62,818 nucleotides of DNA from Burkholderiales bacterium (lineage in GTDB: Bacteria; Pseudomonadota; Gammaproteobacteria; Burkholderiales; Burkholderiaceae_C), in the NCBI GenBank assembly GCA_025350505.1, contig JANXXS010000207.1:1-62818 (forward strand). The letters are read 5' to 3'. Below the pieces are notes generated by a model, which was not told the DNA's origin, ran no database searches, and saw nothing but the letters and a program-made list of their open reading frames with translations. Below, piece by piece: positions 13,910-19,936 of the stretch; position 1 is the stretch's first letter; the number at the start of each line of letters is the position of its first letter. A program made the translations under genes and the position numbers.

Positions 13910-15136
13910 CTAGCCGCAGGGAATGATCTTGAATTCGACGCGCCTGTCGAGCGCGTCGACGGCGTTGTCGGTGCTGCTGCCGACGATGTTCTGGCGAAAA
14001 CCCATGCCGACGGTCTTGGTCCGCGCCCCGAGCGCCGCCGCCTCGCCCGAGAGGCGCTGCCGGATGACATTGGCGCGCTGCAGCGAGAGCGCATCGTTCG
14101 ACTGCTCCGAGCCGGTCTTGCTGGTGTGGCCGACGACGCTCATGCAGACCTTGGCGGCGGTGCCTTCCTTGGCGATCTGGCGCAGCCACATCGCGTAGGG
14201 GCCGCTTACCTTGCTGTCGGACCAGAAGTCGGTCGTGCCCGGGTTGAACAGGAACTTGACGCCAAGTTCGTTGTAGGCGATGCCGAGGGCGACGACGCGG
14301 CCGAAGGCCTGCTCGGCCTCGCCCATGCGGCCGAGCTTGAAGGTCGTGAGGTAGATGCCGTTCAGCACGCGCAGCTGCTCGCCGGTCGGCGTCGCCAGGG
14401 CGCTCCGGTACTGGCCGAGCGCCTCGACGTAGCGCTCCTGGTTGTACAGCGTGGTCGCTTCGTTGATGAGGGTGGCCGAGGCGATGCGCTCGAGGTAGAA
14501 GGCGTCGCCGCGCTGGCCCGGCGGCGTCACCGAGGTGCGCGCATAGCCTTCGATGACCTTGTCCTTGACCAGCACCGGGCTGTCCCGGTAGTAGGCGAGC
14601 GGCGTGTGGTCGAGGCCTTCGTCCTTGGCGACGGCGGAGGCCTGCGCGACGACGTTGCCGCTCTTCAGCTCGGTGAGGGCGAGGTTGATCTGCAGGGCGC
14701 GTTTCCGGTTCGAAGCGCCGCTGTCGATGCGCGTCATGGTGCCCGTGAGCAGGTACTGGGCACGCGCCAGGTTCGCCGACTGGAAGGGCAGGACCTCGAA
14801 CTGGTCGAACCGGGTCGTCAGCCGCTCGGTAACGCGGGTCTCGAGCAGCACGGTGGCCGCGGTCTGCTGGCCGGTCGCGGCGTCGAGCATCGGGTCGAGG
14901 ACGACGCCGCGCTTGTTGAGCCTGGACTCGACCTTGGCAAGGAAGGCCGGCAGCTTTTGCGTCTGCCCGGCCAGGCCGTCGGTCGCATGCGCCACCGCCT
15001 GATCGAACGGCAGCTCCTCGTTGAGATTGGTCGCCTGGGGTGCCGCGCAACCGGCCATGACGGCCATCAGGCTAGCGGCGGCCCCGCTCCACGCCGCGAT
15101 TCGCAAGGAGTTCGAGATCGAGACTTTCATCTGCAT
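13910..15136 (-). CDS. OmpA-domain lipoprotein (module 1)
   Basis: MKVSISNSLRIAAWSGAAASLMAVMAGCAAP (lipobox AGC); C-terminal OmpA-like CMSVVGHTSKTGSEQSNDALSLQRANVIRQRL...GMGFRQNIVGSSTDNAVDALDRRVEFKIIPCG. Start at 15136 or 15130; 15130 gives a 4-nt ATGA overlap with the kinase. Confidence 0.85.
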   Translation of the reverse strand: MQMKVSISNSLRIAAWSGAAASLMAVMAGCAAPQATNLNEELPFDQAVAHATDGLAGQTQKLPAFLAKVESRLNKRGVVLDPMLDAATGQQTAATVLLETRVTERLTTRFDQFEVLPFQSANLARAQYLLTGTMTRIDSGASNRKRALQINLALTELKSGNVVAQASAVAKDEGLDHTPLAYYRDSPVLVKDKVIEGYARTSVTPPGQRGDAFYLERIASATLINEATTLYNQERYVEALGQYRSALATPTGEQLRVLNGIYLTTFKLGRMGEAEQAFGRVVALGIAYNELGVKFLFNPGTTDFWSDSKVSGPYAMWLRQIAKEGTAAKVCMSVVGHTSKTGSEQSNDALSLQRANVIRQRLSGEAAALGARTKTVGMGFRQNIVGSSTDNAVDALDRRVEFKIIPCG

Positions 15137-16929
15137 TCCCTCTTCAGATACGCCGCCTCTTCGCTCGTCAAAGGCTCGAGCGAGGCCTTTTGCAGAATAT
15201 CACTGCACCGGTAACCGCCTCCGGGGTAGCGCGGTGCGGCAGGCTTGGTCTCGGCCGGCGGCTCGATGCGCGCGGGCTCTCTTCGCGCCTTTGCCGGCTC
15301 GACGACCACCGGCTTGGTCTCGCGAATCGGCGGCTCGACCACCGGCCGCGGCGGCTCGCGCCTCGGCTCGACGATGGCCGGCTTGACTTCGACGAACGGT
15401 GTCGACGCGGCGGCGCTCGCCGGTGCCGGGACGTCGATCCGCGTCGGCGGCGCGATCGGAATCGCGGCCGCGCTCGCGGAGGCGGTGGTCGGTGCCGGCG
15501 CCGACGCGACGACCGGCGCGGACGCGACCGGCAGGGCCGGGGGTGGCAGCACCGGGACGACGGCCGCAGAGGCTGCCGGTACCGCCGGTGTGGCACCGCC
15601 GTCGCCGCGCGGCTGCACCCAGAAGTACGCGCCAATGCCGAGGCCCGCTGCGACGAGCACCAGCGCCAAGCCGAGCATCGCGCCCTGACGCTTGCCTGCG
15701 ACCGCCGCCATCGGTGCGGCCGGGACGGGCTCGGGCAACGCTTGCCAGTCCGCTTCGTCGGGGTGCGGCGAAATCTGTGTCTGCAGCTCCGTTGGCGGCA
15801 TGGCCACATCGGCGCCTGCCTGCGTGGCGGGCATCAGCGGTTCGGGCGAACGGGCGAGCAGTTGCGTCGCCAGCACCGGCGTCAGCGTTCCGGGCACGGT
15901 CGAGTAGCCGCGCTCTTCGGTGGTGGCGAAGGCCTCGTGGCTCAGCGTGCCATAGCCGCTCGACGGCGGCGCCGGCGCGACGGCGGGCAAGTCGGCGTCC
16001 AGCAGAGCGCGGAACTGTGCCTCGCTCTGCGGCCGGTCCTGCGGCTTGACGGCGAGCGCCGCGTCGATCGCGCGCAGAAAGGCGTCGCCATAGCGTCCGG
16101 CCACGGTCCGGGAGAGCGGCTCGAGCCGGTCGTCCATGAGCCGCTCGACCGACGACATCGGCGTCTTGCCGGTGATCGCGTAGTAGACGACGCAGGCCAA
16201 CGCATAGATGTCGGTCCAGGCGCCCTGCGACATCGACGCGACGTCGCCGTATTGCTCGATGGGCGCATACCCCGGCTTCAGCACCACCGTCAGGGCATGC
16301 GTCATGTCGCCGATGACGCGCCGTGCGGCGCCGAAGTCGAGCAGCAGCGGGCCGGCCGAGGTGAGCAGGATGTTGTCGGGCGCGATGTCGCGGTGAAAGC
16401 ATTGCGCGGCATGCATCACTGTCAGCGCGTCGAGCAGCGGATTCAGCCAGGCGCGCAACTCGGCTTCGCTCGGCACGTGGCCGAGCTCGGCCAGCGCCGC
16501 CTTCAGGGTCGGCCCCTCGTAGAAGGGCATGGCCATATAAGCGGTGCCGTTCTCTTCCCAGAACCGGTAGACCTTGACCAGCGAGGGGTGGTCGAATCTG
16601 GCAAGCAGACGCGCCTCGTTGACGAAGCTCTTCAACCCGGCCTTGAAGGTATCGAGATGACGCTCGGACTTGACGACGATGGCCGACGAGCCGGCCACCC
16701 GCGAGGCCATCGAGGCCGGCATGTATTCCTTGATCGCCACCTTGCGCTGCAGCGAATGGTCCCAGGCGAGGTAGACGATGCCGAAACCGCCTTCGCCGAT
16801 CAGCCCGTTGATCTCGTAGTCGCGCAGGAAGGTGCCGATCGGCAACGTGTGGCCGAGCGGCGCCGATGCCGACCGCTGCGAGCGCGGTCGGATGATGGTT
16901 CGCTCTTCGTCGTCGTCAGGCGCGCTCAT
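15127..16929 (-). CDS. Membrane Ser/Thr protein kinase (active-site intact, module 1)
   Basis: GEGGFGIVYLAWDHSLQRKVAIKEYMPAS...HAAQCFHRDIAPDNILLTSAGPLLLDFGAAR...TDIYALACVVYYAITG; TM segment AMLGLALVLVAAGLGIGAYFWV; Pro/Ala-rich linker; C-terminal YRCSDILQKASLEPLTSEEAAYLKRECR. Confidence 0.93.
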   Translation of the reverse strand: MSAPDDDEERTIIRPRSQRSASAPLGHTLPIGTFLRDYEINGLIGEGGFGIVYLAWDHSLQRKVAIKEYMPASMASRVAGSSAIVVKSERHLDTFKAGLKSFVNEARLLARFDHPSLVKVYRFWEENGTAYMAMPFYEGPTLKAALAELGHVPSEAELRAWLNPLLDALTVMHAAQCFHRDIAPDNILLTSAGPLLLDFGAARRVIGDMTHALTVVLKPGYAPIEQYGDVASMSQGAWTDIYALACVVYYAITGKTPMSSVERLMDDRLEPLSRTVAGRYGDAFLRAIDAALAVKPQDRPQSEAQFRALLDADLPAVAPAPPSSGYGTLSHEAFATTEERGYSTVPGTLTPVLATQLLARSPEPLMPATQAGADVAMPPTELQTQISPHPDEADWQALPEPVPAAPMAAVAGKRQGAMLGLALVLVAAGLGIGAYFWVQPRGDGGATPAVPAASAAVVPVLPPPALPVASAPVVASAPAPTTASASAAAIPIAPPTRIDVPAPASAAASTPFVEVKPAIVEPRREPPRPVVEPPIRETKPVVVEPAKARREPARIEPPAETKPAAPRYPGGGYRCSDILQKASLEPLTSEEAAYLKRECR

Positions 16930-16982
16930 TCCGTGACCCTAGACCGTTCGGCGCTTTCCGCCAAGCGGGATCGGCCGGGTCA

Positions 16983-18194
16983 TCAGCGGGGGCAAGGCAC
17001 GATCTTGAACTCGACCCGCCGGTCGAGCACGTCGAAGCCGTTGTCGGTGCCGCTGCCGACGATGTTCTGGCGAAATCCCATGCCTTCGACCTGGGTCCGG
17101 GTCGCCAGCACCGGCTGCTCGTTAGTGAGCCGCTGCCGGATCGTCGATGCGCGTTTGAGCGAGAGTGCGTCGTTGACGGAGGCCGGTCCGCTCTTGCTGG
17201 TGTGGCCGACGACCTTCATGCAGCTACCGGCGGAGGCCACGCCGCGCGCGATCTGGCGCAGCCACATCTGGTAGGCGCCGCTGATCTTCGGATCGGACCA
17301 GAACTCGACGCTGCCCGGGTTGAAGAGGAACTTGACGCCGAGCTCGTTGTAGGCGATGCCGAGCGAGACGATGCGGCCGAACGACTGCTCGGCCTCGGCG
17401 GTATGGCCCAGCTTCATGTTGGTGAGGTAGAGGCCGCTTTCCGCGCGCAGCTGCTGCCCCTGCGGCGTCGCCAGCGCGGTCTGGTACTGGCCGAGCGCGT
17501 CCTGGTAGCGCTCGGCGTTGTAGAGGGTCGTCGCCTCCGTGATCACGGTGCCGACGCCGATCCGCTCCATGTAGTACGGGTCGGCACGCTGACCGGGCGG
17601 TGTCGATGTCGTCCGCGCATAGCCTTCGACGACCTTGTCCTTGATCAGGACCGGGCTGTCCTTGTAGTAGCGCGACGGCGTGGCGTCGAGGTTTTCCTCG
17701 CGCGCGAGTGCCGATGCCTGGGCGACGACCAGGCCGCTGCGAATGTCGGTGAGGGCCAGGCTGAGGCGCACCGTCGGCTTGGCCTCGGTGGTGACGCGCG
17801 TCATCGTCCCGGTCAGCAGGTATTGCGCCTTCGACAGGTTGGCGGCCTGGAAGGGCAGAAACTGGAACTGCGGAAACCTGGCGGCCATGCGCTGCGTGAC
17901 CCGCCGCTCGAACAGCAGTGTCGTTTCGGTCTGCTGGCCGGTGATCATGTCGAGCATCGGGTCGAGCACGATGCCGCGCCGCGGCGCATTCGCGTCGGGT
18001 GTGCTCAGCGTCGATTCGATCCGGGCCAGGAAGGACGGCAGCTTTCCGGTCTGCGCGACCAGGTTGTCGGTGGCGTCGGCGGCCGCCTTTTCAAAAGACT
18101 GCGGCTCCGACGAGGAGCAGGCGGCGAGCAGCGCTATCAACGCCACGCCGAGCAAGGCGGCGAGGCGGCCGCGGACGAGGGCGGAGGCCTTCAT
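16983..18194 (-). CDS. OmpA-domain lipoprotein (module 2, paralog of 13910-15136)
   Basis: MKASALVRGRLAALLGVALIALLAACSSSEP lipobox; CMKVVGHTSKSGPASVNDALSLKRASTIRQRL...GMGFRQNIVGSGTDNGFDVLDRRVEFKIVPC. Confidence 0.87.
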   Translation of the reverse strand: MKASALVRGRLAALLGVALIALLAACSSSEPQSFEKAAADATDNLVAQTGKLPSFLARIESTLSTPDANAPRRGIVLDPMLDMITGQQTETTLLFERRVTQRMAARFPQFQFLPFQAANLSKAQYLLTGTMTRVTTEAKPTVRLSLALTDIRSGLVVAQASALAREENLDATPSRYYKDSPVLIKDKVVEGYARTTSTPPGQRADPYYMERIGVGTVITEATTLYNAERYQDALGQYQTALATPQGQQLRAESGLYLTNMKLGHTAEAEQSFGRIVSLGIAYNELGVKFLFNPGSVEFWSDPKISGAYQMWLRQIARGVASAGSCMKVVGHTSKSGPASVNDALSLKRASTIRQRLTNEQPVLATRTQVEGMGFRQNIVGSGTDNGFDVLDRRVEFKIVPCPR

Positions 18195-19936
18195 TTGCAC
18201 TCCCTTTTGAAAAAGTTGGTTTCGGCCGCGGTGATGCGTTCGAGCGAGGCCTTCTGCAGGATCTCGGTGCAGCGCGCCAGGCGTTCGGCGGCGTTCGCCG
18301 GCGGCGAAAGATCTTCCGGCGCGGGTACCGCCACCGGCGCGGCGCCCGCCGGGCCGGCACGCGCAACCGGCGGCGTGGCGATGGGCGTCGACGCCATCGT
18401 CGCAGGCACCGGCGGCGAAGCGACGGTGGCGCCGGGTCCGGCCGGCGCCTGGCGCGAGGCCAGGGTCGAGGGCGCCGACGCCGGCCGCGGGCTCGGTGCG
18501 GTGCGGCTGTCGGTGGCGACCGGTGTCGTCGGCACGGTCGCAGCGATCGTTTCCGGCGTGGCGGCCGCCGAGGCCGAAGGCGCGGGTGCGGTGCTGACCG
18601 CCGTCGTGGCGACCGGGTGGCCGGTCTGGCGGGCGTAGAACTGCAGCGCCAGCGCGGCGATGCCGATCAGCGCCCCGGTGCCGGCAACGAGGCCGTACAG
18701 CGCCCGCTTGCCGAAGAGGCGGCGCACCGCGTCCCGGCGCAGCCACGACGGCGAGCCGGCGGCCGAGCGCGGCGGCACGCTGTCGCCGCCCGTGTGCGCC
18801 GGCGCCTTGACGCGCTCGCCGGGCGTCGTTCGCAGCACCGCCGCGGCGGTCGTCGCCGGCCGGGCACCCGGCTTTGCGGCGCTGTCGCCCGCCGGCATCA
18901 GGGGCCGATCAGGAACGGTGATCTCGCGCTCGCCCGGGCGGTTGCCGACAAAGGGCTCGTGCATCAGATCGCGTGGCGGCGCCAGTTCGAGCGGCTCGGT
19001 CGCGTCGATGTCGCCCATCAGCGATCTGAACTGGAGGTGGTCGCGCGGCCGGCGCTCCGGCTCGACCGCCAAGGCCGCGTCGATGGCGGCCAGGAAGCTC
19101 TCGCTGTACAGGCCCGCGGCGATCGTCGAGAGCGGCTGGACGTGGTCTTCGGCGAGACGGTCCGCGGCCGGCGCCGGCGGGCTGCCTGTGATCGCGGCGT
19201 AGACGACGGCGGCCAGTGCATACAGGTCGGTCCATGCGCCACGTGTCGTTTCGGCGGCGCTGCCGTACTGCTCGATCGCCGCGAAGCCCGGCTTGAGGGC
19301 GGCGGCGGGCGTGTGGTCGAGCGCGGCGATCGTGTGCTCGGCGGCGCCGAAGCCGAACAACACCGGGCCGATCGGCGTCAGCACGATGCCGTCGGGGCCG
19401 ATGTTCTGGTGCCAGAGATGGCCTTCATGCAGCAACGTGACGGCGTTGAGGATCGGCTTCAGCCAGGCGCGAAGCTCGGCCTCGCTGGGCACATGGCCGA
19501 GCTCGGCAAGCGCGGCCTTGAGCGTCGGTCCTTCATAGAACGGCATGACCATGTAGGCGGTGCCGTTCTCTTCCCAGAACCGGTAGACCTTGACCAGCGA
19601 GGGGTGGTCGAAGCGGGCGAGCAGACGCGCCTCGTTGACGAAGCTCTTCAGGCCGGCCCTGAAGACGTCGTGCTGGCGTTCCGAACGGACCACGACCGGC
19701 AGCGCGCCCTCGGCCCGCCCCGCCATCGAGGCCGGCATGTATTCCTTGATCGCCACCTTGCGCTGCAGCGAATGGTCCCAGGCGAGGTAGACGATGCCGA
19801 AACCGCCTTCGCCGATCAGTCCGGTGATCTCGTAGTCGCGCAGGTAGGTGCCGGCCGGCAAGGCGTGCCCGTACGGACGCCGAGCACCGAGTGGCTCTCC
19901 TGGATCGTCGATCGCGTGTGCCGGGTTCATCACCAT
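18191..19936 (-). CDS. Membrane pseudokinase (Ser/Thr kinase-like, catalytic residues lost; module 2)
   Basis: GEGGFGIVYLAWDHSLQRKVAIKEYMPAS conserved, but HRDIAPDN -> HQNIGPDG and DFG -> GFG; TM ALYGLVAGTGALIGIAALALQFY; C-terminal ARCTEILQKASLERITAAETNFFKRECK. ATGA overlap with the OmpA gene. Confidence 0.88.
   Translation of the reverse strand: MVMNPAHAIDDPGEPLGARRPYGHALPAGTYLRDYEITGLIGEGGFGIVYLAWDHSLQRKVAIKEYMPASMAGRAEGALPVVVRSERQHDVFRAGLKSFVNEARLLARFDHPSLVKVYRFWEENGTAYMVMPFYEGPTLKAALAELGHVPSEAELRAWLKPILNAVTLLHEGHLWHQNIGPDGIVLTPIGPVLFGFGAAEHTIAALDHTPAAALKPGFAAIEQYGSAAETTRGAWTDLYALAAVVYAAITGSPPAPAADRLAEDHVQPLSTIAAGLYSESFLAAIDAALAVEPERRPRDHLQFRSLMGDIDATEPLELAPPRDLMHEPFVGNRPGEREITVPDRPLMPAGDSAAKPGARPATTAAAVLRTTPGERVKAPAHTGGDSVPPRSAAGSPSWLRRDAVRRLFGKRALYGLVAGTGALIGIAALALQFYARQTGHPVATTAVSTAPAPSASAAATPETIAATVPTTPVATDSRTAPSPRPASAPSTLASRQAPAGPGATVASPPVPATMASTPIATPPVARAGPAGAAPVAVPAPEDLSPPANAAERLARCTEILQKASLERITAAETNFFKRECK

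Follow-up and report, generated by a model that had tools for sequence, protein, structure and literature searches.

In the YfiB-YfiR-YfiN system an outer-membrane OmpA-like lipoprotein controls an inner-membrane diguanylate cyclase via a soluble periplasmic go-between, and in the LpoA/LpoB-PBP1 pairs an outer-membrane lipoprotein reaches an inner-membrane cell-wall synthase. In Acidovorax citrulli the outer-membrane protein TssW, whose gene lies beside ppkA, binds the periplasmic part of the kinase PpkA and sets the position of the type VI secretion system (T6SS) (PMC12607579).

The locus studied here lies in a stretch of 62,818 nucleotides from a Burkholderiales bacterium, hereafter the window, and consists of four genes on the minus strand in the order pseudokinase K1, lipoprotein L1, kinase K2 and lipoprotein L2 (L is used below for the lipoproteins and their homologues). 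Their features are as follows:

18191..19936, minus strand: K1, pseudokinase; degenerate kinase domain (Pkinase 1.4e-20 in Pfam; HQN/G/GFG at the catalytic positions; kinase-domain dN/dS 0.28), one membrane span by eye, Pro/Ala linker, two-Cys tail.
18194..18274, minus strand: C-terminal two-Cys tail of K1, RCTEILQKASLERITAAETNFFKRECK; tail HMM 3.5e-11; dN/dS 0.09.
16983..18194, minus strand: L1, lipoprotein; lipobox, LpoB/FlgO-like and TPR-like region, OmpA domain (OmpA 3.3e-9 in Pfam; family profile 6.3e-99).
15127..16929, minus strand: K2, Ser/Thr kinase; catalytic motifs HRD/N/DFG intact (Pkinase 6.6e-31 in Pfam; kinase-domain dN/dS 0.16), one membrane span by eye, linker, two-Cys tail.
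15130..15210, minus strand: C-terminal two-Cys tail of K2, RCSDILQKASLEPLTSEEAAYLKRECR; tail HMM 1.5e-13; helical hairpin in AlphaFold2, pLDDT 76.
13910..15130, minus strand: L2, lipoprotein with an architecture like that of L1 (OmpA 8.5e-8 and a weak LpoB match, 0.0039, in Pfam).

The positions and the gene order given in a preliminary description of this DNA were confirmed, as were the ATGA overlaps between K1 and L1 (18191-18194) and between K2 and L2 (15127-15130) and the gap of 53 nt between L1 and K2. The same description spoke of a duplicated module, which holds in that there are two K-L pairs; in a quickly built tree (no formal test), L1 and L2 belong to two distinct, non-sister clades, and a recent tandem duplication of the module was therefore rejected. 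It had also considered that the unit might already be a named system: our literature searches did not find a paper describing the K-L unit itself, while the functionally similar TssW-PpkA pair has been described (PMC12607579).

Within the family, 62 of 400 genomes were found to contain homologues of L, which are thinly spread outside it. A scan of named genomes yielded 448 relatives, and 79 loci of these were read. After removal of identical copies there were 151 distinct L proteins, 14 of them cut by contig ends, leaving 137 with readable upstream DNA. In 114 of these 137, counting four loci in which the tail was called by eye or weakly scored, L comes after a gene whose product ends in a short two-Cys tail, with a Pro/Ala linker before the tail and a membrane span or signal sequence before the linker. 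Among 144 K-L pairs the two genes share an ATGA overlap in 120 and another overlap in 21 more, and we infer that such overlapping genes are translationally coupled. The proposal that each kinase is coupled to its own lipoprotein, which was to fall if the homologues were not neighbours in other genomes, is borne out by these counts, and the kinase-lipoprotein pairing is strongly supported. Moreover, four other genomes share the order K1-L1-K2-L2 with the window, and coupling of K with L is seen repeatedly in the family, so that the arrangement is more than chance.

The other 23 distinct L proteins have no tail-bearing partner. In at least 5 of these 23 a WD40-caspase protein, apparently exported, comes directly after L; in a clade of nine, L is preceded by a protein of about 740 aa with CxxCH motifs, which gave no Pfam match in the one case tested (L208), and a PpkA-like kinase often lies further upstream. 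As side observations, the window's own genome contains a third L homologue (L039, 264-2006, on contig C40 of G000), its partner cut off by the short contig, and three contigs titled as Rokuibacteriota carry Burkholderiales-like L copies of about 60-66% identity, which may reflect a binning error or a transfer.

The two kinases end in a closely similar tail of 27 residues with two Cys, placed after one apparent membrane span and a Pro/Ala-rich linker. For the tail, AlphaFold2 predicts a helical hairpin whose two Cys lie near its two ends and would presumably form a disulphide. When 40 whole genomes were searched with the tail profile, 18 of the 20 L-positive genomes matched, with the tails beside L, and none of the 20 L-negative genomes, a set taken from the top of the list and not at random, gave a match below E = 0.04; one weak partial match (E = 0.003) was seen in G144, near but not at L. 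The tails of K1 and K2 show dN/dS values of 0.09 and 0.14, against 0.49 and 0.66 for the respective linkers (simple Nei-Gojobori averages, as for all the dN/dS values reported here). Separately, at five loci, some of them in genomes without T6SS, kinases of this type have another C-terminal motif, with four cysteines, which is possibly a further docking tail.

As for the catalytic domains, K2 retains the VAIK Lys, the HRD Asp, the catalytic Asn and the DFG Asp expected of an active Ser/Thr kinase, whereas in K1 the HRD Asp, the catalytic Asn and the DFG Asp are all gone. The view that the operon encodes one active and one inactive receptor is thus supported by the motifs of the two proteins. 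The HRD and DFG Asp are missing from the K1 orthologues in all five genomes sharing the gene order, and the kinase domain has a dN/dS of 0.28 in K1 versus 0.16 in K2; to judge from its sequence, K1 is dead yet under purifying selection. Catalytic residues are lost also in the kinases of L132/L141, L196, L056 and L060, and in L196, which belongs to a congener, a lone pseudokinase-L pair is found, by eye, apparently at the same chromosomal site. A conserved pseudokinase pair offers a natural test of scaffolding versus catalysis.

The part of the partner that precedes the tail is not always a kinase. Among the 114 partners, 80 are of the main kinase type and 9 are other kinases; the rest comprise TIR (7), AAA (5), short secreted (4), DUF4384 (3), caspase (2), two-span (2) and M23 (1) proteins and one unclassified case. 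Pfam searches on representative partners returned TIR_2, AAA_22, Peptidase_M23, DUF4384 (below cut-off) and Peptidase_C14; that the tail is fused also to caspase domains is held less surely. At L051 the kinase is only 31% identical to K2, the tail matches at 23 of 27 residues and L at 74%, and in the L tree the DUF4384, M23 and second kinase types nest inside the main kinase clade. The output domain has been replaced while tail and L were kept, which argues that the unit held by evolution is tail plus L; by this comparison of loci, they and not the kinase are the conserved entity. A tail-bearing partner was also noted on a plasmid of the alphaproteobacterium Indioceanicola (L309, 4971-5852), with an N-terminal domain matching neither Pfam nor a known family. 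Three points had been overlooked in the preliminary description: that the tail is conserved, that the cytoplasmic domain is swapped, and that K2 is related to the PpkA kinases of T6SS. The interpretation given there is overall partly supported, with envelope sensing, whether inside-out or outside-in, as its conjectural part.

We consider it probable that K and L form a two-part link across the envelope, in which docking of the tail on L ties an exchangeable output to the outer membrane. A possible but rather doubtful alternative is that the pair is no more than a regulator that places or switches on the T6SS, with K2 as PpkA and L as TssW or its functional equivalent. The catalytic domain of K2 belongs to the PpkA-like family of T6SS kinases: a kinase 66% identical to the K2 domain adjoins tagF and tssM, another, 48% identical, is also annotated within a T6SS cluster, and close relatives of this domain that are not part of a K-L pair are located in T6SS clusters, several of them ending in DUF4384. 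The pair itself is embedded in T6SS clusters in four genomes, all from one L subclade, and the genes around the embedded pairs include FHA, PP2C, TssM, VgrG, ClpV and TssB/C, although not each gene was checked in each genome; a T6SS FHA gene lies at 4678-6609 of L307. A HAMP kinase, in two cases with sCache, stands beside the pair within T6SS clusters at L053 (3209-5233), L220 (640-2541) and L191 (7964-9811), according to Pfam. L and T6SS also co-occur, since TssB is present in 43 of 62 L-positive versus 94 of 338 L-negative genomes (odds ratio 5.9, Fisher 1e-9, shared ancestry uncorrected), and the size-stratified odds ratio is 12.8 in the subset with known sizes.

However, TssB is absent from 19 of the 62 L-positive genomes, among them all five L-positive genomes sampled from one genus, and the pair therefore does not require the T6SS. 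A plain T6SS regulator is also hard to square with partners such as TIR and AAA, and against it speak the inspected T6SS kinases outside the embedded pairs, which end in DUF4384 or otherwise and are without L, and the TssW paper, which mentions no OmpA (PMC12607579), the likeness of TssW to L being one of description only. No T6SS gene was found in the window with a limited marker set, and by these markers K2 is not encoded in a T6SS cluster. L was also considered as a general T6SS-cluster gene and rejected, because the profile of its N-terminal part had no match in the other T6SS loci fetched, even if four T6SS clusters do hold the pair. T6SS control is likely an output for the kinase-type pairs and not the definition of the system.

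L1 and L2 bear a signal sequence and a lipobox, and in the AlphaFold2 model of L2 (pLDDT 88.4, pTM 0.84) Foldseek recognised an OmpA-like fold in the C-terminal part; with OmpA fold and lipobox, L is an OmpA-like lipoprotein, which probably sits in the outer membrane. The N-terminal part of L2 weakly resembles LpoB, FlgO and TPR, with LpoB (18.9 bits vs 22.3) and FlgO (13.8 vs 22.6) below the Pfam gathering cut-offs. The Asp of the canonical OmpA motif GHTD is replaced by Ser in 148 of 149 L proteins, and the Arg of the diaminopimelate site is kept in 149 of 149. Since ZorB II binds peptidoglycan and its H141 and S143 have been reported as functional (PMC11890865), the change from Asp to Ser need not abolish peptidoglycan binding, which on these residues is uncertain for the OmpA domain of L. 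It seems unlikely to us that the pair is a device for envelope homeostasis, in which L would regulate how peptidoglycan is made or cut, with the kinase reporting on it: the LpoB- and FlgO-like N-terminal part and the M23 peptidase found as a partner would fit this, but the matches lie under the cut-offs, the M23 case is single and the canonical Asp is replaced.

It is quite improbable that the pair is an anti-phage or cell-suicide system triggered at the envelope and equipped with exchangeable effectors. One could be led to this reading by the TIR, caspase and kinase domains, which are common among defence effectors, by the patchy distribution in 62 of 400 genomes and by Zorya, where an OmpA-like domain in the envelope part is combined with exchangeable effectors (PMC11890865). 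Against it, PADLOC matched no system and gave similarities of a generic kind, to kinases, TIR or caspases, so that the candidate was rejected on this search; the window flanks look like housekeeping genes, and the partners with caspase, M23 or DUF4384 domains look periplasmic.

Returning to the docking of the tail on L, the strict genetic pairing, the overlaps, the conservation of tail and L and the replacement of the output domain suggest a reusable connector across the envelope. The catalytic domain of K would lie on the cytoplasmic side, and the flexible linker and the two-Cys helical tail would reach into the periplasm, where L would be the docking partner of the tail, and the state or position of L would control the output domain of K. 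For K2 the output would likely be a phosphorylation controlling the T6SS or an envelope response, and K1, as a conserved dead kinase, could serve as scaffold, decoy or brake via the same kind of docking. More tentatively, with the case for it a little short of even, this may be a general and unnamed Gram-negative docking system, in which a disulphide-linked C-terminal hairpin of about 27 residues would address unrelated outputs (kinase, pseudokinase, TIR, AAA, M23, DUF4384 and caspase) to one family of outer-membrane lipoproteins. Should tail and L bind each other, the linking of unrelated outputs to the outer membrane would be explained by a portable module of very small size, which would also offer a way to study how envelope signals reach PpkA-like kinases.

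Compared with the known systems, the K-L pair would share with YfiB-YfiR-YfiN an outer-membrane OmpA-like lipoprotein controlling an inner-membrane enzyme, but the latter system has a diguanylate cyclase output and a soluble go-between. With LpoA/LpoB-PBP1 it would have in common an outer-membrane lipoprotein reaching an inner-membrane enzyme, and L has a weak similarity to LpoB; there, however, the partner is a synthase and not a tail-bearing kinase. Zorya (ZorAB and effectors) is alike in coupling an OmpA-like periplasmic domain to exchangeable outputs (PMC11890865), whereas the K-L pair has no ZorA/ZorB motor, carries the OmpA domain on a lipoprotein and has the output fused to the tail; among the four genes of the window there is no ZorA, and the OmpA part alone matches ZorB, weakly. 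TssW-PpkA-Fha, the closest case described so far and compared by description only, presents an inner-membrane kinase with a cytoplasmic kinase domain and a periplasmic end, encoded beside an outer-membrane partner that binds this end, much as proposed for the K-L pair, but its genes lie in a T6SS cluster and it acts on the T6SS (PMC12607579), while the K-L pair is usually unlinked to T6SS and has a two-Cys tail and an OmpA-domain lipoprotein. By this analogy, K2-L2 may work like the TssW-PpkA pair.
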